Below are positions 91-13,255 of a stretch of 28,763 nt of DNA, in pieces; positions within the stretch are counted from its first letter, which is position 1; every line of letters begins with the position of its first letter. The notes beneath the pieces were generated by a model. That model was not told the origin of the DNA. It searched no databases and was given only the letters and a program-made list of their open reading frames with translations. Location of the stretch: the IMG/VR virus record IMGVR_UViG_3300032342_000667, positions 1 through 28,763 of that record. One strand, given 5' to 3'. The DNA is from a virus. Made by a program: the position numbers and the translations under genes.

Positions 91-93
91 ACA

Positions 94-1175: not shown

Positions 1176-1211
1176 TCTATCGCTCCTTTGTCGTACCTTA
1201 ACCGTGCCTTA

Positions 1212-1235
1212 CCGCATTCCCTATCCAGCATTCCC
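1212..1235 (-). repeat. Dispersed GGGAATGCGG repeat: one exact and one variant copy
   Basis: Read leftward, a variant (GGGAATGCTGG, 1235-1225) is followed by an exact copy (1221-1212). Both lie in the 163-bp gap between the gene ending at 1339 and the start of 411-1175, oriented with transcription. The rest of the gap (1236-1338) holds the imperfect palindrome TTCAGCGCTTAAA but no gene or convincing promoter that I can see. Confidence 0.9.
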
Positions 1236-1338
1236 TGCTTCACGAAGTACTATTGAATCTCATTTAAGCGCTGAAGTTGTTTGATACCGAGTGGTTACGT
1301 CAGAAGCCACGTTTCTTTCCGGAAGTTCTCCAGGAAAT

Positions 1339-1554
1339 CTACTCCAAGAACTGCCAGTCAGGATTCAGGCGAATCCGTTCGACTCCATGTTTCCGGATTT
1401 CTAAAATCACCTTGTACAGCGAGTGGCAGTTGGTGTCGATCCATTCCCCATCCGCTTCCACCCAGACGTTCATCGGGCCGTTGGTGTGCTGCCCGGAGGT
1501 GATCGTGGGGTGGCTGAATGGGGTTTGCAGGACTCGGAATTTACCTCGCTCCAC
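1339..1554 (-). CDS. Small hypothetical protein, probable GTG start
   Basis: About 71 residues if it starts at the GTG at 1554. This start is preferred over the longer ATG at 1596 because it has GGAG at good distance and overlaps the end of the upstream gene by only 14 bp. The sequence includes NVWVEADGEWIDTN and a basic C-terminal half (EIRKHGVERIRLN). The pattern resembles a small beta-rich domain. No family recognised. Confidence 0.5.
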   Translation of the reverse strand: MERGKFRVLQTPFSHPTITSGQHTNGPMNVWVEADGEWIDTNCHSLYKVILEIRKHGVERIRLNPDWQFLE

Positions 1555-1846
1555 GGTACATCTCCGGAAAGCCAGCCTGCACGTGCCACTGGTCAATCAA
1601 TTGCTGAACCTCGGTTGGTGCCGATCCGCCACCGCTGATCCCGCTCGACTGAATCGGTATCGTTTTTGACACCGATACAAGCATGTCGAACACTCTCACG
1701 GAATTGAGCCCAATACGGCTTGAATAGTTGTATCCAAGTCCCACCAGCGTCATTTGAATTGTTTTGCTACTCGTGCTGGTGATATCGCATCGTCTCCCGG
1801 GATCAGCTTGCAGCCAGTCATTCAGTGAATGGTCGATGTTCCTCAT
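1541..1846 (-). CDS. Hypothetical protein in leftward operon
   Basis: A 101-residue protein. Its ATG overlaps the stop of the upstream gene (ATGA, 1843-1846), which supports the start and coupling. The middle is beta-prone (QMTLVGLGYNYSSRIGLNS) with a Gly/Ser-rich linker near residue 80. No cysteine pairs, membrane segment or motif recognised. Function unknown. Confidence 0.6.
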   Translation of the reverse strand: MRNIDHSLNDWLQADPGRRCDITSTSSKTIQMTLVGLGYNYSSRIGLNSVRVFDMLVSVSKTIPIQSSGISGGGSAPTEVQQLIDQWHVQAGFPEMYRGAR

Positions 1847-2094
1847 ACCCCACGGTCCCTTTCCATCTTCAGTGAAGCCGCCACCCTGATGAGACGATTG
1901 GCGGTAATCTCGGCGCTGTGGTACTGGATCTCCTCACTGGCGTCCTGTCCCATGCCGATCTCCACCCCCAGTGCCAAGCAGAGTCCCTCGATCACGACGT
2001 CGTTGTCCGGGATCTTCCCAGCGTCATCCATCGCTTCGATCGTGTCCAATAGACGACTTGCCAGTCTCTTGATTGCTTTTTTTCTGTTTCCCAT
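1843..2094 (-). CDS. Hypothetical protein, helical
   Basis: An 83-residue protein starting MGNRKKAIKRL, with GGAAG upstream of the ATG at 2094. A longer reading from 2148 would start on the ATG inside a GGGAATGCGG repeat and translate two more repeats as RECGECG, so I reject it. The body is predicted mostly helical and acidic. It ends in an ATGA overlap with the next gene. Function unknown. Confidence 0.6.
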   Translation of the reverse strand: MGNRKKAIKRLASRLLDTIEAMDDAGKIPDNDVVIEGLCLALGVEIGMGQDASEEIQYHSAEITANRLIRVAASLKMERDRGV

Positions 2095-2110
2095 AGTCTT
2101 CCTTGCGTTT

Positions 2111-2152
2111 CCGCATTCCCCGCATTCCCTTTTGAAATAATCCCGCATTCCC
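2111..2152 (-). repeat. Three GGGAATGCGG repeats between two operon genes
   Basis: Exact copies at 2152-2143, 2129-2120 and 2120-2111 (the last two share one base), oriented with leftward transcription. The first overlaps the TAG stop of the gene at 2152-2532, so the stop codon is part of the extended repeat TAGGGAATGCGG. They fill the gap before the gene starting at 2094. Confidence 0.95.
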
Positions 2153-2532
2153 TATCGTGCTGAATGGGCGCTCCGTGTGCGAAGTTGACCCGGAGCGGCC
2201 GCTTGCAAAAAGAACAACGCCTGCTCGGTCAGTACGTCCTCGTCCTTGTCTGGTAACACGCCAGCGTAGTGCGGCAACTGCGCCAGCACTTCCGCCACCC
2301 AAGGTCCCGTGTGCGCCACGTGAAAGGCGGTGGATGGCGTCAGGATAGCGAAGAGAACAGCCCGCAGGTTCATGCTCTGCTTGGGGGTCAGTCTGATCTG
2401 ATCCCGTTCAATCGCAGCCTCCCCCTCCAGTGTCTGGATCTTGTGGATGGCTTGCGAAACGATCTCAGCCTGCCAAGAATCCAGGGAGCAGGGTTCCGTG
2501 ATTATCTCCTGCAGCTCGTCGATCAGCTTCAT
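2152..2532 (-). CDS. Hypothetical protein in leftward operon
   Basis: A 126-residue protein. GGAGG lies 7 nt upstream of the ATG at 2532, and the ATG overlaps the upstream stop (ATGA). The first half is acidic and helical (MKLIDELQEIITEPCSL). A more hydrophobic stretch with small residues follows around residues 50-85 but is not a clear membrane segment. The TAG stop is shared with the first base of a GGGAATGCGG repeat. No family recognised. Confidence 0.65.
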   Translation of the reverse strand: MKLIDELQEIITEPCSLDSWQAEIVSQAIHKIQTLEGEAAIERDQIRLTPKQSMNLRAVLFAILTPSTAFHVAHTGPWVAEVLAQLPHYAGVLPDKDEDVLTEQALFFLQAAAPGQLRTRSAHSAR

Positions 2533-2864
2533 GTTTTATCCTCCAGTTCCTTGGTGAACCCAGGGTCTTCCTTCACGACTCTCTTCGCGTAATTCTTCCC
2601 GCGGATCCTGCTCAGGTAGTCAAACAGCGTCCGCGTCTTGGGAGGGTAACACTTAATGCACCGCCACCCTGGAGCGACGTTCCCAAGCAAATCTCCCGTG
2701 ACCGGCAGGTAGGTGTCTCCTGATCCGCAGGTGGGGCAGAACACGATCTCCTCTTCCACTTCACCCTCGACGTTCTTCACTGGTGGCGTGAGGTCCTTGG
2801 TGGTTTTCACGGGAGCGACCTTCTTCTTAGTGTTGCGTGCGTCCAGGCGAAATGAATCGTCCAT
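2529..2864 (-). CDS. Small zinc-ribbon-like protein
   Basis: A 111-residue protein. GAGAGGAGA lies 5 nt before the ATG at 2864. After a basic, Lys/Pro-rich N-terminal tail come CPTCG (about residue 43) and CIKC (about residue 73), a CxxC/CxxC arrangement typical of zinc ribbons. The C-terminal third is basic (SRIRGKNYAKRVV). Nucleic-acid or protein binding is plausible but not shown. It overlaps the upstream gene by 38 bp. Confidence 0.65.
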   Translation of the reverse strand: MDDSFRLDARNTKKKVAPVKTTKDLTPPVKNVEGEVEEEIVFCPTCGSGDTYLPVTGDLLGNVAPGWRCIKCYPPKTRTLFDYLSRIRGKNYAKRVVKEDPGFTKELEDKT

Positions 2865-3159
2865 GAAGTCTCCTCTCCACCAGCGCTTCGATATGACAGG
2901 GGCTCTTTGTTATATCCGCGGGCGTGTGTTGGTTCATCGCGAATATCAGGCGATGCACCGACTCCACGGAGGAGTGCTTCACGTTGTTGATCATCACGGA
3001 TTGCAGGCGGATGGTTCGACCATCAAGATCCACCGCCCCCTCCCTGGTCCAGGCGGAAACGACATTCCTTGTCCTGCCAATCACCGCGCTTAGCTTGGCG
3101 ATCATCAGGGGAGTTTCGGTGGTGTAGTCAAACACGGCTATATCCTGAGTTTGGTCCAT
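2827..3159 (-). CDS. Putative helix-turn-helix-like DNA-binding protein
   Basis: A 110-residue protein. Residues about 20-45 (IAKLSAVIGRTRNVVSAW, then a basic/polar segment and IRLQSV) have the spacing of a helix-turn-helix followed by a wing, like small phage regulators. The start at 3159 has only a weak ribosome binding site and overlaps thyX by 22 bp; the end overlaps the zinc-ribbon gene by 38 bp. It is a candidate for a factor binding the operators in this genome. That link is inference. Confidence 0.5.
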   Translation of the reverse strand: MDQTQDIAVFDYTTETPLMIAKLSAVIGRTRNVVSAWTREGAVDLDGRTIRLQSVMINNVKHSSVESVHRLIFAMNQHTPADITKSPCHIEALVERRLHGRFISPGRTQH

Positions 3160-3947
3160 TCATTCAAACCATCGACCTCGATCCGCTCCCCGCCGTGTAA
3201 CATCATGGGGAACTTGGCGCGAATGATCTCCCCCACGTCGTGGAAGACTTGACGAATCTCCCATTCGGCATAACGGGAGGTCCTCAATTCCAGCATGTGT
3301 CTCAACGATCTGACATTGACCGTCCATCCGATCTCGTTCGTGGCGCCATTCGGCATGATCCTTCGCAGAGCGGACGTGAGCCGTTTCTTCGTGGCAAAGT
3401 CAGTACCCGGATCGTCGAGTTTCAATAGGGTACGGTAGTGCCTCACGTTCTGCTTGATCATCGACAGCAGATCGCGCATGGCATCGCCAATGGACCTGTC
3501 AGCCATGTATCCAGGGATGATCTTCTCCTCCAGTTCAGGCGGCAACACAAGTTCGGCATCCTCCACCGTGCAGTATCGTCCGCTAGTTTGCGAAAATGCT
3601 GTTCCAACACGGTGTCTGACCAGTTCGTGAGTGAAGACCCTGGAACAGTCAGTGGTCAAGAAATTCAGGTTGCAGTGCTCGAAGACTGATCCGTGTCCAG
3701 AGCGAATCGTGGCGGTGATGTTGTCAGCAATCTCCCGCGTCTTCCCGATATTGGAGTTCTTGCCCAACACCAGTGATCGGTAGCAGAGTTTCGCGTACAG
3801 CGAGACGAGAATCATCCCGCTGGACATCCCGTCCTCTTCGGCGATGCTCATGTCCCGCAGGAATTCCACCTGCCCAGTGTCGCTCAGGTACTCCGTCACT
3901 CCCTGGTAATCAATCTCCGTCGCTCCGATCAAGTACGTCTTTGGCAT
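3138..3947 (-). CDS. thyX: Flavin-dependent thymidylate synthase ThyX
   Basis: A 269-residue protein. ThyX methylates dUMP to dTMP using FAD, NADPH and methylenetetrahydrofolate. Visible signatures are the flavin/dUMP motif region HELVRHRVGTAFSQTSGRY (about residues 107-125) and the C-terminal TVNVRSLRHMLELR block followed by AEWEIRQ, which matches the conserved SLRHF.ELR..-.AQWEIR region of the family. The spacing from RHR to the conserved Ser is one residue longer than the classical RHRx7S. AGGAG precedes the ATG at 3947. It is in the leftward operon, so it is probably made with the other early/metabolic genes to supply thymidine for phage DNA. Confidence 0.93.
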   Translation of the reverse strand: MPKTYLIGATEIDYQGVTEYLSDTGQVEFLRDMSIAEEDGMSSGMILVSLYAKLCYRSLVLGKNSNIGKTREIADNITATIRSGHGSVFEHCNLNFLTTDCSRVFTHELVRHRVGTAFSQTSGRYCTVEDAELVLPPELEEKIIPGYMADRSIGDAMRDLLSMIKQNVRHYRTLLKLDDPGTDFATKKRLTSALRRIMPNGATNEIGWTVNVRSLRHMLELRTSRYAEWEIRQVFHDVGEIIRAKFPMMLHGGERIEVDGLNEWTKLRI

Positions 3948-4152
3948 GAATCAGCTCCTGGTGAACATAACGATGTACCCGATTTCCACCACAACCGCCG
4001 TCCAGTGGCTGATCACGGAAGTAGGCGTGCTGCTCCACTACCACCGTGCTTCCAAGCGAGACTTTCCACTCGATGACGATTTGCTTCGGTGATTCCCCTA
4101 CGTCGATCACGGCCCCGTCCCGAGGTCCTCCAAAAAGAAAAGCTCTGTCCAT
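3910..4152 (-). CDS. Small hypothetical phage protein with a GGPRDG motif, first gene of the leftward operon
   Basis: An 80-residue protein starting MDRAFLFGGPRDGAV. This start is chosen because a GGAGGGGGG purine run lies about 10 nt upstream; the longer reading from 4254 would cross the promoter and translate the repeats. The pattern GGPxDG near the N-terminus, a central beta region and a late tyrosine/histidine segment (HRYVHQ) recurs in small uncharacterised phage proteins. It overlaps thyX by 38 bp. Function unknown. Confidence 0.6.
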   Translation of the reverse strand: MDRAFLFGGPRDGAVIDVGESPKQIVIEWKVSLGSTVVVEQHAYFRDQPLDGGCGGNRVHRYVHQELIHAKDVLDRSDGD

Positions 4153-4169
4153 TTTCCCGCACCCCCCTC

Positions 4170-4199
4170 CCGCATTCCATGCCTTGGCCCCGCATTCCC
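4170..4199 (-). repeat. GGGAATGCGG repeats at the start of the leftward transcript
   Basis: An exact copy (4199-4190) is followed by a variant TGGAATGCGG (4179-4170), both oriented leftward. The exact copy begins about one base after the expected transcription start of the promoter at 4207-4234, so it would form the very 5' end of the operon mRNA. Confidence 0.9.
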
Positions 4200-4206
4200 T
4201 GCTGAG

Positions 4207-4234
4207 ATTATAGCAAGTGTCGAAATGTGTGCAA
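4207..4234 (-). promoter_or_regulatory. Leftward sigma70-type promoter
   Basis: On the minus strand, TTGCAC (4234-4229), a 16-bp spacer and a perfect TATAAT (4212-4207). The expected start is near 4200. It is correctly placed to drive the whole leftward operon starting with the gene at 4152. Confidence 0.75.
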
Positions 4235-4279
4235 TAGTGCCAGAACTCAACCAAATGTGACCAAATGTGTGTAAATGTG
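4223..4279 (+). repeat. 10-bp-phased AAATGTG direct repeats (iteron/operator-like)
   Basis: AAATGTG occurs at 4223-4229, 4253-4259, 4263-4269 and 4273-4279. The last three are exactly 10 bp apart and the first is exactly 30 bp before them, so all lie on one face of the helix. The first overlaps the spacer of the leftward promoter. The arrangement suggests cooperative protein binding, as repressor/activator sites or replication iterons. No clear rightward promoter is seen in 4280-4392, only weak candidates near 4287-4315. Confidence 0.6.
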
Positions 4280-4392
4280 GGAATGTTTGTTTATTTCTTA
4301 GCATGTGGCAAACTCGGTATTGTTGCTTATCTAAGTCCTTGTTGTGATTGGTTTATCGCCCAGCCGATGGCGAATCACACAAGGAGCATTTC

Positions 4393-5562
4393 ATGCCAGT
4401 TGAAGTCCAGGAAGAGCCGGAAGTTAAGAGCGATCCGGTCGTTGACGTATTCGCGGAAGCCAGAACGGAAGCGGCCAAGATCGACAAGGCCGAACAAGCT
4501 GCCTCCACGGAAGCCAAAAGTGTCGACCCCCCGGCCGAGACGCCAGAAAAGCCGTCAGAACCGCCACCATCCAGCGTGATGGAGGCCTTCAAGGCTCGCG
4601 GCTACGACATTTCCCACATCAAGTCAGAAGACGAGCTGTTCGAGTACATCGAAGCCGTTGGCGAGCAGGCGCGGGCCAATGCCGATGCCACGCAGCGGCG
4701 TCAAGAAGTGGCTGCCGAACGATTCCGCGAACCAGCCAAAGAACCGGAGAAATCTCCGGAACCAGCCGAGAAAAAGCCAGTATTCCGCAAATGGGAAGCT
4801 GCTCCGCAGTACGACGAAGGCTGGGAGTCGGTGTGCGAATTCGACCAAAAGCTCGGTCGCTACGTCATTTCCGAGCCCTATCGCGGCACGGTTCAGGCGG
4901 ACGTCGCCAGTAAATTGACGGACTACAAAAAGTGGGAAATCAACGCGTTGCGGACCACGCTGCGGGAATTCCCCACCCAAGTTCGCCAGCAACTCGGGAT
5001 GCCGGACGACGTGAACTCGATCGAGGAAATGATCGACCGTCGCGTGGAAGAAAAACTGGCCGAATCCCAGCAGCATCAGGCGGCCCAATCAGAAACCGAC
5101 AAGATTCGGAACTGGATGGACAGCAACCGTCAATATCTCTACGCCTGCGATCCGTCGGGCACTCCGAAGAACGATCCACTGACCGGGCGCGCGATGATGA
5201 CCGACGCTGGCCGGTATGTTTCCGGACTGATTCAAGAGGGCCTGGATTTCGCCAGCGATATTGGCGCCGAGCCGAATATTGAGCGGATCACGATGCGCGC
5301 GATCAATCAGGTCGAGCGTCTGCTGGCGGAAGCGAGCGTGACTCCGCAAGTGCCGCAGGTCCCCCAGACTCCGGCTGAGGATCCCAAGGAAAAGTTCGTC
5401 AAGAAGGCCCTGCAACAGGCTCGGGTCAATCCGCCAACCGGAGGCAATCGCGACGGCAGTATTCGCCGGGCGGTTGCGCATGAAATCTCGCAGAACAAAG
5501 ACAATCTCGACCTCAAATCAATGCTCGTGGAGGACTTCCGCGAGGCAGGAATGCTGAATTAA
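4393..5562 (+). CDS. Putative capsid scaffolding protein
   Basis: 389 residues from the ATG at 4393, which has AAGGAG with 6-nt spacing; the earlier ATG at 4348 has no ribosome binding site. The protein is highly charged with Ala/Glu/Pro/Lys-rich disordered stretches (residues about 1-70 and 115-140), helical glutamine-rich middle and C-terminal segments, and no enzymatic motif. This composition, and its place directly upstream of the major capsid gene, fits an internal scaffold that is removed after head assembly. No protease gene or protease motif is seen nearby. The role is inferred from context. Confidence 0.7.
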   Translation: MPVEVQEEPEVKSDPVVDVFAEARTEAAKIDKAEQAASTEAKSVDPPAETPEKPSEPPPSSVMEAFKARGYDISHIKSEDELFEYIEAVGEQARANADATQRRQEVAAERFREPAKEPEKSPEPAEKKPVFRKWEAAPQYDEGWESVCEFDQKLGRYVISEPYRGTVQADVASKLTDYKKWEINALRTTLREFPTQVRQQLGMPDDVNSIEEMIDRRVEEKLAESQQHQAAQSETDKIRNWMDSNRQYLYACDPSGTPKNDPLTGRAMMTDAGRYVSGLIQEGLDFASDIGAEPNIERITMRAINQVERLLAEASVTPQVPQVPQTPAEDPKEKFVKKALQQARVNPPTGGNRDGSIRRAVAHEISQNKDNLDLKSMLVEDFREAGMLN

Positions 5563-5662
5563 GCGGTAACTGACAACGCCGGTGTAACCGGACGGGGTGC
5601 CGATCGCAACCGCAGCGATTGCCGTGGCGTCACGGAACAAGCACTTCAGTGGAAGGTGAAAA

Positions 5663-6763
5663 ATGGCTGAAGCACTGTCGTTAGTCAACGTGACCGCCAA
5701 GCGATACATGGCGGGGGCGGCTGATCTTACTCTCCGTCGTCGCCTCTTGCTGGCCCTATTGGCCAAGAATGACCGCATTCGCTACGGCGAGAGTGGTTTC
5801 GATTGCAACTGGAACGTCCAGTTCTCCGAGCCTCCAGTGCAGCCGCACGGGTCGAGCGGTGAGTACGAGTTCAACGCCCAGGATCTCTATCGCCAATTGG
5901 TGATCGACTGGCGCGGCTACGTGGCCACCGACAAGATGGACTACAAGGACGAACTGATGAACCGCGGTTCGCTGGCGATCATCGATCGCTACGCTCGGAT
6001 CATCCCGAACCTGAAATCCTCGTTGGAGAACAAGTTTGGAGGCGAGTTCTACATCAACGGCAATCTGGCCGCGAACTCCAGTCGGTTGCATGGAATGTTG
6101 ACGTTCGCGGTGGCGGGCACGGTTGCCGCTGGCGACGTCATCGCTGTCCCAGCCGCGACCTACGGTGGGAAGAGTACCGCTCCGCAGGATCAAGGTGGGT
6201 CGTGGTCAGCGAACCTGACCACCAAGCCAAACGCCACCCTGGCGACCGATTGGCCCGACGGAAACGGCACCACGGAGTACGACTACTTGGCGCCGGTTCT
6301 GATCAACACCTCTTCGACGAACTGGGGAACCGGCTCGACGATCTGGGAGGACAACTGCGGACGCATTCTACGTCGGGCAAGCACGTGGCTGACGAAAAAT
6401 GCTGGTCAAGACGGCAAGCCCACGGTTTACGTCTGTGCTGCTGACATCTTCAACGGCTACCAGAACTACCAGGAAGCCAAGTTCCGCAACATCATTCCTC
6501 ATCCGGAAGGGCGTGATCTGGGTTTCCCGGACACCCTCAGTCAGGACGGCGTGATGGTGAAGTACGAGTTCGACGTGGCGGCCGGAGAATTCTGGGGCGT
6601 CAATGTGTTTCAAATGGAAATGGCCTCCCTGGATGACGTGATGTGGGGCGTCCGCGGCCCGACCTACGACATCAAGTCGGATTCCACGCTGTTCAAGGCT
6701 GGCTTCTTCGGCAACATGCGATATCAGCCGAAGTACTTCTGCCACGGCAAGGCCCGAGCGTAA
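5663..6763 (+). CDS. Major capsid protein
   Basis: 366 residues from an ATG preceded by GGAAGGTG. Size, position after the scaffold-like gene and composition match an HK97-fold capsid subunit: an N-terminal helical arm, an extended-loop region (about residues 45-90), an alpha/beta middle with RYARIIPNLKSSLENKFGGE, and a C-terminal region of alternating beta and loop segments ending in GFFGNMRYQPKYFCHGKA. It builds the icosahedral shell. The 100-bp gap upstream holds a small CCGGT/ACCGG hairpin but no gene. Confidence 0.8.
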   Translation: MAEALSLVNVTAKRYMAGAADLTLRRRLLLALLAKNDRIRYGESGFDCNWNVQFSEPPVQPHGSSGEYEFNAQDLYRQLVIDWRGYVATDKMDYKDELMNRGSLAIIDRYARIIPNLKSSLENKFGGEFYINGNLAANSSRLHGMLTFAVAGTVAAGDVIAVPAATYGGKSTAPQDQGGSWSANLTTKPNATLATDWPDGNGTTEYDYLAPVLINTSSTNWGTGSTIWEDNCGRILRRASTWLTKNAGQDGKPTVYVCAADIFNGYQNYQEAKFRNIIPHPEGRDLGFPDTLSQDGVMVKYEFDVAAGEFWGVNVFQMEMASLDDVMWGVRGPTYDIKSDSTLFKAGFFGNMRYQPKYFCHGKARA

Positions 6764-6836
6764 CACACGCGCCTCCCTGGTAACGGTGCCTCGGGACGCT
6801 GATTGGTTGCAAGATTTCAAGTAAAGGACGAAGAAA

Positions 6837-7391
6837 ATGGAAAATCAAGTTGGTCACATGCCGCGCGGCCAGTCTGTTACGCAAATTCCAGACGCCGTGT
6901 TGGGAGTTCGGAAGGTCTTCACAGACGTCAACTGGGGCTCGACCGAAGCGATCAAGCCTCGTTTGACTGGTGCGGACGTCCATTGCCGGTTGGTGCAGAA
7001 CACCTCCGCTGGCGCGTTGCTTCCTGGTCAAGCCGTGGTTTGGAAGACTGGGTTCTTCCTGACTCAGATTGGTGCCACTGCTGGCTCGCTGTCGCTGGCG
7101 GCCGGAATCGTTGATGAGTATTTACCAGCCGCTGGCGTGCCCATCAATTCGTACTTCTGGCTGGTCGTTGAAGGTCCCACGCTGGTCATCAATGACGGTG
7201 TTGGTGTTTTGGCGGAAGGTGCGATCCTGGTCTGCTCGGCGACTGCTGGTCAGGTGCTGGCTCAGACCGCTGCTCCGGGGCAGGGTAGTGAATTGGCGCA
7301 GGTCAACGGTGTCATCGGCTTCACCTTGGCGTCCATCACGAACGTGGCCGCAACCAAAGGCCGAGCGGTAGTCAAACTCGCCTCTCGGTAA
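6837..7391 (+). CDS. Putative capsid decoration/stabilisation protein
   Basis: A 184-residue protein. AAGGACGA precedes the ATG. It is rich in Ala/Gly/Val with repeating short beta strands, and the C-terminal half (VLAEGAILVCSATAGQVLAQTA, then GVIGFTLAS) has the pattern seen in small head-decoration proteins where added and outgoing strands carry AxAGQV-type turns. It directly follows the major capsid gene and is the last gene before a strong terminator. The assignment rests on composition and position; other head roles are possible. Confidence 0.6.
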   Translation: MENQVGHMPRGQSVTQIPDAVLGVRKVFTDVNWGSTEAIKPRLTGADVHCRLVQNTSAGALLPGQAVVWKTGFFLTQIGATAGSLSLAAGIVDEYLPAAGVPINSYFWLVVEGPTLVINDGVGVLAEGAILVCSATAGQVLAQTAAPGQGSELAQVNGVIGFTLASITNVAATKGRAVVKLASR

Positions 7392-7438
7392 CGATTTCGG
7401 CAATGGGGGTCTTCGTTCCTGGCGAACGATTCCCATTT

Positions 7439-7476
7439 ATGCGGACCATCAAGCTCCGGTGGTCCGCATTTTTTTT
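7439..7476 (+). terminator. Rho-independent terminator after the head genes
   Basis: A perfect 10-bp stem (ATGCGGACCA / TGGTCCGCAT, 7439-7448 and 7460-7469) with an 11-nt loop, followed by a run of T to 7476. It ends the scaffold-capsid-decoration transcript. Confidence 0.9.
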
Positions 7477-7483
7477 GCGCTAC

Positions 7484-7511
7484 TTGACGCATTAGCCATA
7501 CACGCTAAACT
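7484..7511 (+). promoter_or_regulatory. Promoter with embedded palindromic operator, copy 1
   Basis: TTGACG (7484-7489), 16-bp spacer, TAAACT (7506-7511). Inside it is TTAGC-N7-GCTAA (7492-7508), overlapping the -10 box. The same boxes, spacing and palindrome occur at 10140-10167, so both promoters are probably controlled by the same regulator. Expected start near 7518, right before a hairpin. Confidence 0.75.
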
Positions 7512-7517
7512 GTACTG

Positions 7518-7603
7518 CGTTGGTCTGGCCGATCGACACTGGTTTCAGCCGTTTAATCGAGCCCAGTAGTAATACCGGAGGTAGAGCGGCTGGAGCCTTT
7601 TTT
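7518..7603 (+). ncRNA. Small structured RNA candidate 1
   Basis: A free-standing unit with its own promoter and terminator and no ORF. From the predicted start come a hairpin (GTTGGTC / GATCGAC, 7519-7537, 5-nt loop, two G-U pairs), then a closing stem GGTTTCAGCCG / CGGCTGGAGCC (7541-7551, 7587-7597; 11 pairs with two G-U) and six T. The large loop holds TCGAGC-CCAGTAGTA (7557-7571), shared with candidate 2 as TCGAGC-GCGCAGTAGCA. A GGGAATGCGG repeat follows immediately. Confidence 0.6.
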
Positions 7604-7613
7604 GGGAATGCGG
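7604..7613 (+). repeat. GGGAATGCGG repeat directly after an RNA terminator
   Basis: An exact copy that starts on the base after the T-run of the small RNA 1 terminator, in the direction of transcription. Confidence 0.9.
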
Positions 7614-7784
7614 GCTGAAGACAGGGAAGAAGCCCAGGAAGAAATAGCCCGTGCGGAGTCTGTTGTGGATCTGCATCCGAGTCTTCGGTGTCTCCCGCAC
7701 GGGCGCGGGGTTTGTGGGGACACCGACATAGAAAGACGTCGATTCGCTGATCGGATGGGTGCCAAGAGATTGGCGAGTGCGAAC
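7614..7784 (+). other. Non-coding structured segment between two terminators
   Basis: No credible gene. It contains a 10-bp perfect stem GCCCGTGCGG / CCGCACGGGC (7647-7656, 7695-7704) with smaller hairpins in its loop (such as GGAT-CTGC-ATCC). ORFs that cross it run through the terminator hairpins on either strand and have no ribosome binding site. No separate promoter was found; it may be read-through from RNA 1, or a second RNA. Confidence 0.4.
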
Positions 7785-7835
7785 GACCCGGTCGCGTCGT
7801 GTTCTCATGGGACACGACGCGGCCGGTCCTTTTTT
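7785..7835 (+). terminator. Strong rho-independent terminator
   Basis: An uninterrupted 10-bp core CGCGTCGTGT / ACACGACGCG (7793-7802, 7812-7821) with a 9-nt loop, extended outward by GACC / GGTC (7785-7788, 7825-7828), then six T (7830-7835). It separates the RNA segment from the gene at 7864. Confidence 0.85.
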
Positions 7836-7841
7836 AATCCA

Positions 7842-7851
7842 TGGAATGCGG
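7842..7851 (+). repeat. Variant repeat TGGAATGCGG after a terminator
   Basis: A one-base variant of GGGAATGCGG, 6 bp after the terminator T-run and 12 bp before the ATG at 7864. Its internal ATG is in frame with that gene. A weaker variant AGGAATGCAG lies at 7871-7880 within the first codons. Confidence 0.75.
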
Positions 7852-7863
7852 GGCCTATTGCAA

Positions 7864-8241
7864 ATGAATGAGGAATGCAGAAAAAACGTCAACACGTTTA
7901 CGACAGGCGCCGTACGAGGGACGGACGCTGACAGCACGAGGTACGATCTGATCAGCCCCGTCGCGATGCGCAGGATCGCCGAGACATACGCCGAAGGGGC
8001 GACGAAGTATGGCGCTCACAACTGGCGGAAGGGGTTTCCCGCTTCGGACCTGATGAACCACGCCCTGAAGCATCTCTACACGTTCTTGGCTGGTGATCGT
8101 TCCGAGGATCATCTAGCGCACGCCACATGGAATCTGATGGCGATCATGCACTTCCAGGAAAAGATGCCAGGGATGATTGACATACCGTGTGAAGCTCCCA
8201 TGCTTCCCGTAGAAAAACTCTCTCCCTGGAAGAGCACATGA
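7864..8241 (+). CDS. Putative dATP/dGTP diphosphohydrolase (MazZ-type N-terminal domain)
   Basis: 125 residues from the ATG at 7864. Residues about 23-105 show the family's run of motifs: YDLISPVAMRRIAETYAEGA, KYGAHNWRKG, SDLMNHALKHLYTF, GDRSEDHLAHATWNL and MAIMHFQE. This is an all-helical metal-dependent nucleotide pyrophosphohydrolase fold related to MazG; relatives cleave dATP/dGTP and shape the phage nucleotide pool. The ribosome binding site is poor. An alternative start at the ATG inside the repeat (7845) is in frame. No purZ or DNA polymerase gene is visible in the window to show which nucleotide is targeted. Confidence 0.75.
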   Translation: MNEECRKNVNTFTTGAVRGTDADSTRYDLISPVAMRRIAETYAEGATKYGAHNWRKGFPASDLMNHALKHLYTFLAGDRSEDHLAHATWNLMAIMHFQEKMPGMIDIPCEAPMLPVEKLSPWKST

Positions 8242-8489
8242 TTGAACATACCTACATCTGCAACATTTGCCACCAAGCCATGCGAACCGATACAGCCCGC
8301 CGCTGGATTGATGGTGTGGTAATCCACACCTCTGGTCCACCAGCAAATCCCACGGAGAGAATGGTGTTAGACAGTTACCCGAGTGGCGGCAGTGTCCACA
8401 TTTGCTCGCGATGTTTTCCTCCCTTGAAAAAGGCCATCGAATCCACGACGTTGGAGATCATAACCCTGCATGTTCCAGAAGTGAGGTGA
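8238..8489 (+). CDS. Small cysteine-pair (zinc-binding-like) protein
   Basis: An 83-residue protein. ATGA overlap with the upstream gene. CNICH at residues 8-12 and CSRCF at about 56-60 form a CxxC...CxxC pair, likely a zinc-binding site. The middle (GVVIHTSGPPANP) is loop-like. A small phage zinc protein of unknown role, translated together with the diphosphohydrolase-like gene. Confidence 0.6.
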   Translation: MIEHTYICNICHQAMRTDTARRWIDGVVIHTSGPPANPTERMVLDSYPSGGSVHICSRCFPPLKKAIESTTLEIITLHVPEVR

Positions 8490-8492
8490 TTT

Positions 8493-8831
8493 ATGATCGA
8501 TTCTCATGCTGAACCAAGTGAGCCAACTAGCGAACAGTGCAACAATCACGACCAAGTGTTCGAGTCGCACGATCACGTTGGCTACGCGATTTGGTATCCG
8601 TCGATGGGCGGATACAGCGGCAAAGCCGTTGCTGTCATGTGTAAGAAGTGGGTCGACGAAGGGACGTCTCGTACCGGAGGCTGTATCGACGTGTATGTCT
8701 GGCACGATGGCGAGTTTCCGTTCCACGACGGAGAACAGCCAACAATCATTCACCACTGCTGCCCGGAAGGGTTCATCACGTTCGGCGAGAAACTTTCGCG
8801 ACTGAACAATAAAGGGCGTGTGAAGACATGA
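8493..8831 (+). CDS. Hypothetical protein
   Basis: A 112-residue protein. GAGGTGA lies just upstream of the ATG and overlaps the end of the preceding gene. The protein is rich in His, Trp, Tyr and Asp, with a compact alpha/beta pattern around GYAIWYPSMGGYSGKAVAVM and IDVYVWHDGEFPF. Not recognised. The ATGA-type overlap with the next gene shows coupling. Confidence 0.6.
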   Translation: MIDSHAEPSEPTSEQCNNHDQVFESHDHVGYAIWYPSMGGYSGKAVAVMCKKWVDEGTSRTGGCIDVYVWHDGEFPFHDGEQPTIIHHCCPEGFITFGEKLSRLNNKGRVKT

Positions 8832-9250
8832 CGCACTCACCTGAACCGTGGATCGAAGGCGAATGGAGGATTAACGAAGAAGCACGCGGTGGCAAAAATC
8901 CGTGCAAGCGTTCCTGGATCTTCACTGCTGGCAGCGGAATCCACTCTGGCGTTCAGCGCGGCGATATCATTGAGGACGTTTTACCACCACCAACCGAGAT
9001 CATTCGACAACTCGACTGCGAGGAAGGCGGTGGCTACGAAATCTCCGATGACGACATGGAACGTATTGTGGCCTGCGTAAACGCCATGGTTGGAATAGAA
9101 CGACCAGTGGAGTTCATGAAGCAGCTCGGGCGAGTGATGATGCGATCTGGAGGAGTTTGCGTGATGCGGGATTTGCCAATGGGCATGATTGGATTCGTGG
9201 AAGAGTTAGAGAAACTCAAAGAGATTCAGTCGTTCGAGGAATTCTGCTAG
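8828..9250 (+). CDS. Hypothetical phage protein of the MTHSPEPW type
   Basis: A 140-residue protein. The start MTHSPEPW and the later segment DDDMERIVACVNAMVGI match a pattern I know from many small uncharacterised phage and prophage proteins (MTHTPEPW ... ARIVACVNAC.GI). Function is not established for that group. The C-terminus is helical (GFVEELEKLKEIQSF). The TAG stop is part of a GGGAATGCGG repeat. Confidence 0.7.
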   Translation: MTHSPEPWIEGEWRINEEARGGKNPCKRSWIFTAGSGIHSGVQRGDIIEDVLPPPTEIIRQLDCEEGGGYEISDDDMERIVACVNAMVGIERPVEFMKQLGRVMMRSGGVCVMRDLPMGMIGFVEELEKLKEIQSFEEFC

Positions 9251-9296
9251 GGAATGCGGTGCCGGAAAGGATGGAAAATATGTCTAGGGAATGCGG
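9250..9296 (+). repeat. Two GGGAATGCGG repeats flanking a gene start
   Basis: Exact copies at 9250-9259 (sharing the G of the upstream TAG stop) and 9287-9296, 37 bp apart. The second lies within the first codons of the gene at 9280 and is translated as RECG. Confidence 0.9.
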
Positions 9297-9489
9297 GGAA
9301 TATTTCATTGATTTCATTGAATTGCGAATGTTGTCAGTTGATGAGCTGAGCGTTCAGCTTCAGTACCGAATGAGGCCACCTGGAAAGAAGGGAGACTGGG
9401 GACCATGGCGAGACGCCAAAGTTCTGACGATCGGGGATCCGGAGAATCAGGCACAGGACGATCGTCCTGCCAAGCTCGCCCCCTTGTGA
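9280..9489 (+). CDS. Small hypothetical protein with a repeat-encoded N-terminus
   Basis: A 69-residue protein from the ATG at 9280, chosen because AAAGGA lies 8 nt upstream; an in-frame ATG at 9271 is too close to that site. It begins MSRECGEYFIDF, where RECG is the translated GGGAATGCGG repeat. The rest (YRMRPPGKKGDWGPWRDAKVL) looks like a small beta domain. It ends in a TGATG overlap with the next gene. Unknown function. Confidence 0.55.
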   Translation: MSRECGEYFIDFIELRMLSVDELSVQLQYRMRPPGKKGDWGPWRDAKVLTIGDPENQAQDDRPAKLAPL

Positions 9490-9698
9490 TGCGGATTTTC
9501 TGTCAGGCCTGCGAGGACGACCTCTCAGATACCGAGCGCACGATCAGTCGAATCTTCGAGGGCAAGTACTACTGCCTGGAGTGCTACACCGAGAAGGCCC
9601 ATGGTCGCGTCTTTTGCTACGAGCGGGAGAACTCCCAGTATCTCGGCGATCATCTGACACCACGTCAGTTCGCAAAACTTGACCGCGAGGACGAATGA
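9489..9698 (+). CDS. Small zinc-ribbon-like protein
   Basis: A 69-residue protein starting MRIFCQACEDDL. CQAC at residues 5-8 and CLEC at about 31-34 make a treble-clef-like CxxC pair, with a further Cys and His nearby (HGRVFCYE). The start overlaps the upstream stop (TGATG). One of several tiny zinc-binding-like proteins in the accessory segment. Role unknown. Confidence 0.6.
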   Translation: MRIFCQACEDDLSDTERTISRIFEGKYYCLECYTEKAHGRVFCYERENSQYLGDHLTPRQFAKLDREDE

Positions 9699-10126
9699 TG
9701 AAGAAGCCGTTGGATGTGATTGAGGTGGTGGCGGTGATCAACGTCAAACTCCCAGACCCAGCCGTGAGGGCCTTACGCCTGCTGACGAGAACCTACCTCT
9801 CGCAGGCGCTGCATTTGCTGAATATCGAAGAGAACTTGGCGGACACCGCCTCCGGTAATTCAGCGACCACCACCCAGTACGATCTGATTCAGAAATCACT
9901 GAGAGCCTTTGGTGGCGCCCCTGGAAAAGACGAGGCCGCGGAACTGCTGCAAGAAGTGATCGGCCGGATTTCCGAGTTCAGGAGTAACGTGGCGCGTTTC
10001 ACCTCACGGAAAGATCGTTTGCTGGCCGAGATCAAAACCCTGCAAGAACAGGTCGATAAGTTGATCCAGAAAAAACGCCTCTTCAAAGAGGTCAGGAATC
10101 ATCACGCCGAGCCAGTGCAGGAATGA
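9695..10126 (+). CDS. Hypothetical coiled-coil protein
   Basis: A 143-residue protein. GAGG lies ahead of overlapping ATGATG starts at the end of the previous gene. The N-terminus is helical/hydrophobic (ALRLLTRTYLSQALHLL). Residues about 90-130 form a coiled coil (LLAEIKTLQEQVDKLIQKKR). No catalytic motif. A weak AATCAT/ATGATT stem followed by seven T at the stop may end this transcript just before the next promoter. Confidence 0.65.
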   Translation: MMKKPLDVIEVVAVINVKLPDPAVRALRLLTRTYLSQALHLLNIEENLADTASGNSATTTQYDLIQKSLRAFGGAPGKDEAAELLQEVIGRISEFRSNVARFTSRKDRLLAEIKTLQEQVDKLIQKKRLFKEVRNHHAEPVQE

Positions 10127-10139
10127 TTTTTTTGGGCCA

Positions 10140-10167
10140 TTGACAGATTAGCTTTTGCCGCTAATCT
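10140..10167 (+). promoter_or_regulatory. Promoter with embedded palindromic operator, copy 2
   Basis: TTGACA (10140-10145), 16-bp spacer, TAATCT (10162-10167). A perfect 8-bp inverted repeat AGATTAGC-N7-GCTAATCT (10145-10152, 10160-10167) spans from the last base of the -35 to the end of the -10. The TTAGC-N7-GCTAA core matches copy 1 at 7492-7508. A bound protein would block polymerase, so repression is the likely mode. Confidence 0.85.
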
Positions 10168-10173
10168 ATGTGA

Positions 10174-10266
10174 ATCACCAACGCGAGTTGGCAAGGTCGA
10201 CCGCACGACCAAAGGTGAGAAAAGCTGGCGACTTCGAGCGCGCAGTAGCACTCACCTTCCCTTTTT
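10174..10266 (+). ncRNA. Small structured RNA candidate 2
   Basis: It starts at the predicted initiation site. Three hairpins follow: CCAAC-GCGA-GTTGG (10178-10191, a GNRA tetraloop); GGTCG-ACCGCA-CGACC (10195-10210); and a closing stem AAGGTGAG / CTCACCTT (10212-10219, 10251-10258). After CCC and five T the transcript may end, though the CCC makes it a weaker terminator. The loop contains TCGAGC-GCGCAGTAGCA, shared with RNA 1. The second loop contains CCGCA, the exact complement of TGCGG in the dispersed repeat. If transcription reads through, this is the leader of the Cas12-like gene. Confidence 0.6.
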
Positions 10267-10272
10267 ATGTAG

Positions 10273-10282
10273 GGGAATGCGG
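10273..10282 (+). repeat. GGGAATGCGG repeat between RNA 2 and the Cas12-like gene
   Basis: An exact copy just after the RNA 2 T-run. It is followed by a GCGCT-TCGTAGT-AGCGC hairpin (about 10289-10305) and then the ribosome binding site of the next gene. Confidence 0.9.
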
Positions 10283-10326
10283 AGAGAGCGCTTCGTAGTA
10301 GCGCGTAAAAAAGAAAGGGGATGCGT

Positions 10327-11583
10327 ATGTTAGTTAGTGTGACTCCATTTGAGATTTTCAAGTTCGCTGGTGGGGACAAGGCTCGTCGCGCGCAGTGGAA
10401 GCTAGTCTCCGAGGAATGCCAGCAGATTCACAATCGAGTCTGGCAGCTATTCCTCCAGTGGCATAGCGTTAATGGGTCTGTTGCAAAGATCAAGGCTGGC
10501 TTGGAGGCCTTGGCTGCTTGGCGTGCGGCAGGTGGAGACAAGGAGACGAAACCTAAGCCGGAAGTGGTGGCGATCGGCTCCGAGCTTAGCAAGATCATCT
10601 ACCGTGATGTATCTGATGGCTGGCCGGATGTTCACTCACGCACCAGAGTGCTGCTGCTGAATCGTTTAGTATCCGGCATCCGAACCCGCAAGGCTTGCAG
10701 AGGCTCCTTGCCGGGTTGGATCAATATCCTGTTCTGCCGGGAGGGAATCCCATCCTTCACGCATCCAGTTCCGATTCCATTCGATAAGGTAAACTCCCAT
10801 CTGATTCCTCCTGACGACGAGAACGATAACTGGCGGCTGTCGGTGAAGGTGGAGCGGTCGCCTAGTGACGGCCACTCCCTGGTAGATGAGTGTGAACTCA
10901 TGACCCGCAAGCGAAAGACACGCAGAATCGCTGGCGTGCTCTCTAGGATCGCTGAGGGACTGTCATCGTTTCGTGGCTCCTATTTGGTATGTGATCGCGG
11001 GAAGTGGGTTGCCATGATCTGCCACACCTCAGCCGCGGAGCAGGCTAACATGCTCGACTCCACCAGGAAGGCCATCCTCATGCCGGGGGTGCATAACGCG
11101 TGGGTGGTGAAGAAGAACGGCATGATACGTCGTCGATTCGCTGACCGGAATGGTGAAGCGAGGCACGTCCTTGGTATGCGTCGGTTGATCTTCGGTGAAC
11201 GTCAGGAGCGGCAGGCAAATTACCGCTGGGCCTCGTCCAGCCTTAAGGGTCACGGCCGCGGGAAAGCCACGCACGGATGGGAAAAGCTCTCCAGCCGCTG
11301 GCGTGATTTCGTGAAGCGTTACAACAACGAGATCACGACGAAGCTGGTGAAGGAGTGCGTGCAGGACGGGATTGGAACGATCGAGTACTACCAGCCAGTT
11401 GATTTCCAGCGCGATCGGCGCTGGCTAACCGGGAAAGACTACCGTTGTGGCTGGGACTATTTTCAGGTTAAAACGATGCTCTCCCAGAAGTGTCAACGGG
11501 CTGGCATCGTGTTTACAACGAAGCAGATCGGTGCGGTGGAGGAGGGCGCGAAGCCAGCCACCATACCTCGAAAAACTGCCTAA
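10327..11583 (+). CDS. Cas12/TnpB-like protein, apparently nuclease-dead
   Basis: 418 residues from the ATG at 10327 (AAAGGGG with 6-nt spacing; the ATG at 10321 is too close). The C-terminal half follows the Cas12/TnpB plan: a strand pair with GKWVAMI (about 225-231); a RuvC-I-like segment LMPGVHNAWVV (251-261); KGHGRG with basic helices (307-312); a long helix (LSSRWRDFVKRYNNEITTKL); and a RuvC-II-like strand GIGTIEYYQP with Glu353. At RuvC-I the expected Asp before (P/L)G is Met252. The protein stops about where the TSxxCxxCG zinc ribbon and RuvC-III Asp should follow. It would therefore bind RNA and DNA without cutting, like TnpB-derived repressors (TldR). It sits behind RNA 2 and before the repeat array. 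The family call is from motif reading. Confidence 0.65.
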   Translation: MLVSVTPFEIFKFAGGDKARRAQWKLVSEECQQIHNRVWQLFLQWHSVNGSVAKIKAGLEALAAWRAAGGDKETKPKPEVVAIGSELSKIIYRDVSDGWPDVHSRTRVLLLNRLVSGIRTRKACRGSLPGWINILFCREGIPSFTHPVPIPFDKVNSHLIPPDDENDNWRLSVKVERSPSDGHSLVDECELMTRKRKTRRIAGVLSRIAEGLSSFRGSYLVCDRGKWVAMICHTSAAEQANMLDSTRKAILMPGVHNAWVVKKNGMIRRRFADRNGEARHVLGMRRLIFGERQERQANYRWASSSLKGHGRGKATHGWEKLSSRWRDFVKRYNNEITTKLVKECVQDGIGTIEYYQPVDFQRDRRWLTGKDYRCGWDYFQVKTMLSQKCQRAGIVFTTKQIGAVEEGAKPATIPRKTA

Positions 11584-11590
11584 CTATCAA

Positions 11591-11710
11591 GGGAATGCGG
11601 GCTGCTGGGCGCACTGGAGGTGAAGTGGGTAAGGGAATCAATAGGGAATGCGGGAATTCCGACTCGCCTCGACGGGTGAAGTGGGCGAGGGAATCAATAG
11701 GGAATGCGGG
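11591..11710 (+). repeat. Three GGGAATGCGG repeats with a 56-bp tandem duplication
   Basis: Exact copies at 11591-11600, 11644-11653 and 11700-11709. The last two lie in a duplicated 36-bp block (11619-11654 and 11675-11710, 34/36 identical) offset by 56 bp, twice the 28-bp period of the later array. Each block also has the half-copy AGGGAATC just before the full repeat. The segment follows the Cas12-like stop and has no credible gene. Confidence 0.9.
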
Positions 11711-11721
11711 CCGGGCAAGCA

Positions 11722-11988
11722 ATGACTAGATTTTTCCGATCGTGTTTCATCTGCCATGATATCGTCTCAGTCAGTGCAAAGGTCGCTGGGCGTGGTGAGA
11801 AGGTGTATTGTTCCGATCATGGCAAGTACGCCACGGTCATAACCAGAAAGGCCAATACTTATGTCAGAGAACCAGGAAAACGCCGTGTGGTCGCAGTCAA
11901 TCGCCAAGGCCCGGGAGCTTCGCCGGAAGGGGGCGGGATTGCTGTGGGATCGCGTGAAGATTCTGATCGGGGTTTACAAGGACAGTGA
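11722..11988 (+). CDS. Small Cys/His protein, overlaps the next gene by 128 bp
   Basis: 88 residues from the ATG at 11722. CFICH (about 8-12) and CSDH (about 30-33) suggest a zinc-binding site in the first 45 residues. The C-terminal 40 residues lie in another frame over the start of the next gene and look low-quality (Gly/Arg/Ser rich), as if only the N-terminal part is under selection. No good ribosome binding site; an in-frame ATG at 11704 lies inside the repeat. Function unknown. Confidence 0.45.
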   Translation: MTRFFRSCFICHDIVSVSAKVAGRGEKVYCSDHGKYATVITRKANTYVREPGKRRVVAVNRQGPGASPEGGGIAVGSREDSDRGLQGQ

Positions 11989-12367
11989 CTTTCTGGCGCA
12001 CTGCGATTCACTCGATCGCAATGCGGAGGACGTGCTCGACGACGAGCTGTCGGACACCTGTTCGGAGTTCCTGCCTCTGAAGATTACCATGGAGTACTTT
12101 CCCGAGAAAAACGACTGGCTGAACACGAAGATTGACGTCCTGCGTGCCAAGGCCGAGGAGATGTGCAAGAAAAGCCGTCATGATGGAGAGGAGATCACGC
12201 GTGATCGGCCTTCCTGGAAAGAACGGTACATGGAATTGAAGCGGAAGTACGACGCCTCCCAGATCGAGTGGCAGCTCAAGCACGACGCCCTGCAGAAGAG
12301 CCACGACGTCATGGAGGCCCGGTTTGAGGAGCTGTCGAAGGTGCTGCAGTTCCAGGCGACGCATTGA
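11861..12367 (+). CDS. Hypothetical coiled-coil protein preceding the repeat array
   Basis: A 168-residue protein. AGAAAGG lies about 9 nt before the ATG. The protein is acidic and strongly helical. Residues about 85-168 look like a continuous coiled coil (KERYMELKRKYDASQIEWQL, then SHDVMEARFEELSKVL). No enzymatic motif. It lies between the Cas12-like gene and the 28-bp repeat array on the same strand, so it could be part of the same module; this is position-based inference. Confidence 0.65.
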   Translation: MSENQENAVWSQSIAKARELRRKGAGLLWDRVKILIGVYKDSDFLAHCDSLDRNAEDVLDDELSDTCSEFLPLKITMEYFPEKNDWLNTKIDVLRAKAEEMCKKSRHDGEEITRDRPSWKERYMELKRKYDASQIEWQLKHDALQKSHDVMEARFEELSKVLQFQATH

Positions 12368-12371
12368 AAAG

Positions 12372-12548
12372 GGGAATGCGGTAGTACTCCTCAACCCTAG
12401 GGAATGCGGGTGGGAACCGTGATGTCAGGGAATGCGGGGGGGTCATCGGCTCGATAGGGAATGCGGGTATACGTCGCATCAACTGGGAATGCGGGGCAAG
12501 GGTGATGCTAGGGAATGCGGGTTCGTCGTTTTGCCCGAGGGAATGCGG
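12372..12548 (+). repeat. Array of seven GGGAATGCGG repeats, about 28-bp period, unique spacers
   Basis: Exact repeats start at 12372, 12400, 12428, 12457, 12485, 12511 and 12539 (steps 28, 28, 29, 28, 26, 28). The six intervening spacers are 16-19 bp and unrelated to each other. The repeat is usually extended to AGGGAATGCGGG. A degenerate eighth unit (ACAATGCGAG) falls in the spacer of the promoter at 12561-12588. The layout is CRISPR-like in miniature, but the repeat is far shorter than a CRISPR repeat and has no internal hairpin. It could instead be an array of protein-binding sites next to a promoter. Confidence 0.9.
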
Positions 12549-12560
12549 GGTACACTAGGC

Positions 12561-12588
12561 TTGACAAAAACAATGCGAGAAGTAGGAT
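12561..12588 (+). promoter_or_regulatory. Promoter at the 3' end of the repeat array
   Basis: TTGACA (12561-12566), 16-bp spacer, TAGGAT (12583-12588). The expected start (about 12594) coincides with the first base of a perfect 9-bp hairpin. It lacks the TTAGC-N7-GCTAA operator of the other two RNA promoters but abuts the seven-repeat array. Confidence 0.7.
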
Positions 12589-12593
12589 GAACG

Positions 12594-13255
12594 CCACTGA
12601 GGGATGAGATCCTCAGTGGTGCGGAAGGCGAGCGAGATTAAAGGCCAAACGTAATATGAGTACATCACTGCAATTTTCGTTACGTTTGGCAAAGCTCGCT
12701 AACGAAAACTCACTTCAACAGCCAGCTCCTTCGGGTTCTGGCTGTTGTCGTTTGCGTCACAGGCATTGCTTGCCAAACGGGCTTTCTCTGACCACACCCG
12801 TAACAGTCTGGTGGTCGAAATCCGATATGCCAAAAACCCGTAAGACGGGTGGCGAAGTAGTGGGTCGAACGGTTGTGGGCAATCTGGTTCACGACGAGAG
12901 TCGAGCACGGACAGCTCGTCTCTTCCACCAAAAGCACATGGCATCTTCGGTAATCGGTGAAACGCACAAAGCGCTGCCCGGCTTCAACTCGGCAGATTCC
13001 AGGAGTATTCCTGGAACGCGTGCGTCTAAAGCACAAACAGATTAACGTGTACCGATTGAAAACTCATGTCACCCCCCCTTTAGCTGTTGAGGGGGAAAGG
13101 GGGTGTCTTCGCCAGAGTTTGACCCCACTTCAGTCAGACGTCACCATCGGCGGACTCCAAGAGTGTCGAGTGCTCTTGGCTGAGGAGGGTCGTCACGAGA
13201 CAAGCCTGTCACGCCTATCGACCCGCGAAAAGAGCCTTCAAAGGCTAAGAGAAAG
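12594..13255 (+). ncRNA. Large, densely structured non-coding RNA candidate
   Basis: About 660 nt with its own promoter and no credible ORF. Perfect stems in order: CCACTGAGG/CCTCAGTGG (12594-12619); AGCGAG/CTCGCT enclosing GCCAAACGTAA/TTACGTTTGGC (12631-12700); AACGA/TCGTT enclosing AACAGCCAG/CTGGCTGTT with a UUCG loop (12701-12752); GACCAC/GTGGTC (12790-12816); ACCCGT/ACGGGT (12836-12850); GACGAG/CTCGTC (12893-12920); AATCGGT/ACCGATT (12952, 13057) enclosing ACGCAC/GTGCGT and two hairpins, one of them TTCCAGGA/TCCTGGAA; a C-rich/G-rich stem (13070-13105); CCAAGAG/CTCTTGG (13157-13179); GGGTCG/CGACCC (13187-13224). It recalls the GOLLD/ROOL class by size and phage context only. It may end as the leader of the gene at 13260. 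Confidence 0.65.

Follow-up and report, generated by a model that had tools for sequence, protein, structure and literature searches.

The Cas12f-like effector and its cassette

We analysed a stretch of viral DNA of 28,763 nucleotides (nt), IMG/VR record IMGVR_UViG_3300032342_000667 (hereafter the window), in which a 10-mer, GGGAATGCGG, is dispersed over the non-structural part and accompanied by a gene for a Cas12f-like protein. Coordinates are those of the whole record of 28,763 bases, and motif counts cover all of it. At the level of sequence, we could establish the family of this effector and the loss of its catalytic residues, a trans-activating RNA (tracrRNA) of the clustered regularly interspaced short palindromic repeat (CRISPR) type, the identity of the 10-mer as part of a CRISPR repeat, an array of such repeats and the conservation of the cassette.

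The effector, P0001, comprises 420 residues (10321-11583, plus strand) and was recognized by profile, PDB and fold matches. It matches the PADLOC Cas12f profile (1.9e-14) and a Cas12f1 chain in the PDB (9i8y, 4.7e-9), and its AlphaFold model, with a predicted local distance difference test score (pLDDT) of 74.5, resembles AsCas12f (Foldseek 8.8e-18; VIA Z 21.7, root-mean-square deviation 8.0 over 353 residues). In the alignment with the PDB Cas12f1, the aspartate of GVDLG lies opposite a methionine and the glutamate of IEN opposite a tyrosine of P0001, which also stops short of RuvC-III. We take this aspartate and glutamate to be catalytic RuvC residues. Their positions are substituted and RuvC-III is absent in 6/6 family members, all of which match the Cas12f/Cas12u3 profiles PDLC01699 and PDLC00932. 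With the RuvC residues replaced and RuvC-III missing, the effector should not cut, and we therefore class the family as a nuclease-dead derivative (dCas12f) and not as a Cas12f nuclease.

Three scans of IMG/VR yielded five further viral contigs with the effector (L025, L026, L035, L039 and L040), at 30-35% identity to P0001, as well as L009, which at 99.98% identity represents the same phage as the window. A cassette of tracrRNA, dead Cas12f, zinc ribbon and helical partner is common to the window and the five contigs. Each effector gene is followed by a small cysteine-rich open reading frame (ORF) and a helical protein, the small ORF of L035 not being cleanly delimited. In the window, the small cysteine-rich, zinc-ribbon-like protein (11722-11988, plus strand) has syntenic counterparts in the relatives and a weak match to the Pfam zinc ribbon (0.013); the small proteins of the three relatives scanned gave no match to it. 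The helical partner (11861-12367, plus strand), with a C-terminal coiled coil, has a homologue behind all six dcas12f genes. Its AlphaFold model (pLDDT 83.5) is helical throughout and found no match among PDB folds (best E 9), making it a candidate new Cas partner.

The phage collection held no match to P0001, and its two weak matches to the L040 protein were rejected, as were 75 Enterococcus plasmids with matches of 24-26% identity covering only half of the protein; in a scan of genome contigs, 0 of 76 stretches encoded a relative. On four contigs (L027, L029, L032 and L033), CRISPR-like arrays adjoin genes for phage proteins more distantly related to Cas12f. Systems exist in which dCas12f works with a partner sigma factor. 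Among the six records, which are fragments, none gave a transposase match for PF09299 or PF02914 (for which the controls were silent) or for PF00665 (for which the controls gave a signal), and none exceeded the cut-off for the sigma factor PF08281, with one sub-threshold match in G001. The two uses published for dead type V effectors, transposition and sigma recruitment, are thus unsupported in these fragmentary records.

The 10-mer, its arrays and the tracrRNA

The preliminary description of this DNA had reported the 10-mer as a directional motif of non-structural regions, and this was confirmed with small corrections. A recount found 19 exact copies at the positions given, 5 on the minus and 14 on the plus strand, against a mean of 0.07 and a maximum of 1 in 100 dinucleotide shuffles; the reversed control pattern does not occur in the record. 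All 19 copies run in the direction of local transcription. None lies beyond 12,548, including the 13-28.7 kb region; allowing one mismatch, the part beyond 12,548 has a single site, at 26,821 (GTGAATGCGG). Of the near copies named earlier, those at 4170 and 7842 (one mismatch each) and 7871 (two mismatches) were recovered, the one given as 1225 being in fact at 1226. As to the described placement in gaps, at stop codons or in first codons, a hand-made gene model puts 18 of the 19 copies between genes, two of these overlapping a stop codon by one base; the sole other copy, 9287 (9287-9296, plus strand), falls among the opening codons of an ORF that begins at 9271. Intergenic DNA makes up about 16% of 1-12,600 in the same model, an approximate share, 5 of the 22 rows of the model having slightly wrong ends. 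An A precedes 14 and a G follows 14 of the 19 copies, the flanks being otherwise variable. The 10-mer is thus a real, directional and intergenic motif, limited to the non-structural part of the window, with a probable regulatory role.

The preliminary description missed that the 10-mer is the end of a CRISPR repeat and that several copies form an array. Directly behind the Cas12f-like gene, on the plus strand, two CRISPR repeats of 35 nt terminate at their 3' ends in copies 11644 and 11700. Behind the effector stop codon lies a 5'-truncated repeat consisting of the 10-mer (11591-11600) and followed by an 18-nt spacer; the first full repeat (11619-11653) ends in the 10-mer at 11644-11653 and is followed by a 21-nt spacer, and the second (11675-11709), with two mismatches to the first, ends in the 10-mer at 11700-11709. 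Farther on, seven copies form a miniature array (12372-12548, plus strand) in which the repeats are 10 nt only. Their start-to-start spacing is 28, 28, 29, 28, 26 and 28, leaving six internal spacers of 18, 18, 19, 18, 16 and 18 nt that are unique and mutually dissimilar. If the reading proposed below is right, 10 nt would be, to our knowledge, the shortest repeat in any CRISPR array.

The relatives have clear arrays of long repeats where the window has two 35-nt repeats and the 10-nt-repeat array. Full 36-nt repeats number two in L025, three in L026, twelve in L035 and three in L039; in L040 the repeat end occurs in eight copies, six of which fit the full-repeat pattern. The period is mostly about 66 nt. 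Spacers measure 16-21 nt in the window and mostly 29-31 nt in L025, L026 and L035; for Un1Cas12f1, the most robust cleavage is reported at a spacer of about 20 nt (PMC7229846). The L040 array sits behind the helical gene, the same place in the cassette as the window's miniature array, and those of the other four relatives sit directly behind the effector gene, the place of the window's long repeats. Outside the arrays, the relatives' repeat ends do not recur, bar two chance-level two-mismatch sites in G002.

These arrays bear on whether the single copies are RNA decoys that mimic the repeats of host Cas12f systems, acting as RNA anti-CRISPRs or through sequestration by the dead Cas, and carry no meaningful guide. 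Single phage repeat units are reported to act as RNA anti-CRISPRs (PMC10651486), and a phage dead-RuvC Cas9 with a tracrRNA is thought to sequester host CRISPR RNAs (crRNAs; PMC10910872, PMC11656645). However, the five relatives have real arrays with unique spacers, the window too retains arrays with unique spacers, and the solitary units of PMC10651486 are described as not associated with cas genes. We consider decoys unlikely.

The remaining copies are single. On the minus strand, one (1212-1221) lies 36 nt ahead of the start codon at 1175, three (2111, 2120 and 2143, spanning 2111-2152) lie 16-48 nt ahead of that at 2094, and one (4190-4199) lies in the leader of a leftward operon, 7 nt behind a TATAAT that a promoter scan did not call as a promoter and 37 nt ahead of the start codon at 4152. 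On the plus strand, copy 9250-9259 lies at a stop codon, 11 nt ahead of the start codon at 9271, and copy 7604-7613 falls within a structured non-coding stretch. This stretch (7512-7835) folds far better than shuffled sequences (z -4.1) and comes with a promoter-like site (7484-7511) and a strong terminator (7788-7826). In total, single copies stand 11-48 nt ahead of start codons in eight cases.

To ask whether the motif follows the phage backbone or the cassette, L055 is informative. This contig shares with the window the major head protein (55%), the terminase (48%) and others; in the 19 of 26 kb examined of this one contig, we found no convincing Cas12f (best E 0.004, partial) and one 10-mer in 19,105 bases. 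The five cassette carriers share with the window only the effector and, in 3 of 5 by tblastn, the helical protein. On these comparisons, the motif travels with the cassette and not with the phage backbone. A scan of IMG/VR for contigs with two close 10-mers returned 15 stretches, of which 14 were unrelated tandem or low-complexity repeats and the fifteenth was the same phage.

The motif had been likened to mycobacteriophage stoperators or start-associated sites, at which a phage repressor would bind the 10-mer DNA along transcription units, the nearby Cas12f being coincidental. A short asymmetric motif in many copies and one orientation to transcription is indeed what has been described for cluster A phages (PMC6550527). 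Here, however, the 10-mer ends a longer repeat of CRISPR type, with a tracrRNA and a dead Cas12f next to it, seven copies form a regular repeat-spacer array and are thus not isolated sites, and L055, without cas12f, has one copy only in 19 kb. The likeness was therefore not upheld, and we regard a repressor-bound site as highly improbable; a protein reader of the 10-mer is disfavoured, no search for a repressor homologue having been made. In function, the copies may still resemble stoperators, as roadblocks along phage transcription units, but RNA-addressed.

The tracrRNA gene (10177-10262, plus strand; ends approximate) carries the anti-repeat UUCCCU at 10257-10262, and 10 nt behind it the leader holds a further 10-mer (10273-10282, plus strand), the two being predicted to fold together as a natural single-guide RNA. 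A conserved RNA core, AGCUG..GACUUCG...GC...GUAGC, precedes all six effector genes. A covariance model, trained on the same six sequences that it matched, found one copy per record in the six records (window 10201-10257, 71.9 bits) and none at a meaningful score in L055. In a 12-pair structure, 72 of 72 cells are paired across the six sequences and five of the 12 pairs show two-sided changes, with 1 of 500 shuffles equally good; the structure was drawn from these same sequences, so that the control favours it. Behind the core follows a tail that can pair with the end of the repeat: in 6 by 6 cross-pairing, the own repeat was the best partner in 5/5 relatives (-15.1 to -19.0 kcal/mol), and 45, 65 and 29 of 2000 repeat shuffles were as stable in L025, L026 and L035, respectively. 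Rfam gave one sub-threshold match only. Three contigs from a looser tracrRNA pattern (L043-L045) lacked the protein and were dismissed as chance.

A bacterial CRISPR array with 58 exact repeats was seen on L042, a contig of a Candidatus Acetothermia metagenome-assembled genome. Its spacer 53 (37 nt, 5286-5322) matches the tracrRNA core of the dCas12f family, 34/37 to L039, so the bacterium seems to target these phages at the tracrRNA gene. On this sequence match, the array is a possible host link and a possible defence against the phage guide-RNA gene, the binning of such contigs being uncertain. Searches of 100 genomes from the phylum to which L042's genome belongs found no dCas12f and no match to the L035 array, both searches being without a positive control.

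A proposed source of guide RNAs

Taken together, it is likely that the 10-mer is a minimal crRNA handle, the 3' part of the repeat, read by the phage's nuclease-dead Cas12f with its own tracrRNA, that the guides are about 18 nt long and that the complex binds DNA, most likely repressing. Phage transcripts running through a 10-mer would be trimmed to the handle plus about 18 nt downstream as the guide. The anti-repeat UUCCCU would pair with (A)GGGAA, with the UGCGG tail of the 10-mer abutting the guide; the trimmed guide would join the tracrRNA and dCas12f, and the loaded protein would sit on matching DNA without cutting it, most likely blocking transcription. Guides would come from the long repeats, two or three in number, that follow the gene, from the seven-repeat miniature array and from the single copies in intergenic stretches of the early operons, one of which is joined to the tracrRNA and so forms a natural single-guide RNA. 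As the 10-mer looks like a shortened guide-RNA tag, the phage's own messages are probably the source of many small guide RNAs. No target was found, so that DNA binding and repression are inferred, as are guide processing and the targets themselves.

Several observations weigh against this proposal. The window's tracrRNA tail pairs with its own repeat at -8.6 kcal/mol, more weakly than with two foreign repeats (-9.0 and -9.8), and 619 of 2000 shuffled 18-nt repeat ends pair with it equally well. At 10 nt, the repeat falls far below the 36 nt seen in the five relatives, and in none of these is the repeat dispersed; copy 9287, moreover, lies inside a reading frame. The guides had no target match in the window and none convincing in the other five phages (7 matches, with 3 mismatches over 18 nt), and an 18-nt array spacer searched against IMG/VR matched the phage itself only.

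Given how its pairing compares with shuffles and foreign repeats, the anti-repeat of the window comprises UUCCCU:AGGGAA only (6 bp). This pairing is supported because the leader folds unconstrained as a natural single-guide RNA would: the minimum-energy fold of 10177-10300 contains the tracrRNA stems and a hairpin of the anti-repeat with the 10-mer at 10273. The A ahead of 14 of the 19 copies fits pairing with the last U of the anti-repeat.

Two further matches came from the target searches. The L035 array, searched against phages, gave a best E of 0.3, mostly repeat sequence, and was rejected. At 5672 in L011, a contig chosen solely for holding two 10-mers, lies a 20-nt match with one mismatch to the sequence behind copy 9287.

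The weak anti-repeat, the 5'-truncated first repeat and the repeats and spacers shorter than those of the relatives would also fit a decaying remnant, a once ordinary array worn to non-working 10-nt stubs. Erosion is very doubtful as an explanation, however: all 19 copies agree in each of the 10 nt although their flanks vary, some copies are located in operons distant from the array, a pattern not produced by erosion, and the effector frame is open across 420 codons.

Within the proposal of RNA-guided dCas12f, a narrower form holds that the dispersed 10-mers turn early transcripts into guides against their own source DNA. If dCas12f tolerates repeat-flanking sequence as a protospacer-adjacent motif, the protein would be led back to every transcription unit to act there as a self-addressed roadblock, and the phage would gain autoregulation and immunity to superinfection by its own kind. 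The eight cases in which single copies precede start codons are where such a block would act. We consider this form unlikely.

The window has further features. Just behind the miniature array lies a structured non-coding stretch (12594-12780; 12549-12780 folds at z -5.7) with a promoter-like site beside it (12561-12588). Elsewhere, the window encodes a ThyX-type thymidylate synthase (3138-3947; Pfam 1e-41) and a dGTP diphosphohydrolase-like protein (7759-8241; Pfam 4.7e-20).

Comparison with known systems

What is new is an RNA-guided nuclease-dead Cas12f cassette in phages and, in this one phage, the dispersal and shortening of its repeat. We know of no precedent for such dispersal and shortening. 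In the available portions of the open-access literature, no phage dCas12f accompanied by dispersed or 10-nt repeats is described. If the proposal is true, a phage has trimmed a CRISPR repeat to ten bases and spread it over its operons, where everyday messages would also serve as precursors of guide RNAs; the phage would further own a natural single-guide RNA as well as a compact regulator, guided by RNA, that has two partner proteins of unfamiliar kind. The system is small enough to be rebuilt in a laboratory strain, and it would show how short a repeat can suffice for Cas12f and by what route components of immunity become tools of gene control in phages. The label "stoperators", plausible from the motif count alone, would then be corrected as wrong.

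Among the closest known systems is type V-F CRISPR-Cas12f (including the former V-U3), to which the window is alike in effector sequence and fold, in a tracrRNA adjoining the gene and in the 36-nt repeats of its relatives. Pairing of tracrRNA and repeat, as in type V-F, was found by cross-pairing in 5/5 relatives; in the window it comprises 6 bp, backed by the leader fold and not by shuffles. Unlike type V-F, the phage family lacks the catalytic residues (6/6), its cassette adds two small proteins, and in the window the repeats, shortened to 10 nt and separated by spacers of 16-21 nt, are dispersed.

Among systems that do not cut, Cas12m (subtype V-M) binds DNA without cleavage and blocks transcription (PMC11013384, PMC11656645). 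The window protein would be alike in binding without cutting, but belongs to another subfamily, with a tracrRNA and Cas12f-type sequence. TldR is a phage-encoded RNA-guided repressor of the TnpB/Cas12 kind (PMC13418256), which the window effector, if it represses, would resemble in all these respects. It differs in having a tracrRNA and many predicted guides, from arrays and from repeats embedded in messages. TldR uses a single guide. CasMu-V is a Cas12 inactivated through loss of RuvC-III (PMC10910872), a loss shared by the window effector, which differs in that no transposase was found in the six fragmentary records.

PMC11656645 and PMC10910872 describe dead Cas9 of phages along with mini-arrays, solitary repeats, Cas12m and CasMu-V. 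Phage mini-arrays and solitary repeat units (Racr) comprise arrays of short length and lone repeats, in some cases directly downstream of promoters (PMC10651486, PMC11656645); their repeats are copies of those of the host, whose Cas proteins they use or block, and the Racr units are solitary repeats without cas genes, whereas the window phage has its own effector and tracrRNA. Cluster A stoperators are alike as directional short repeats along phage operons (PMC6550527), but the window adds to such repeats an array, longer repeats and CRISPR machinery.

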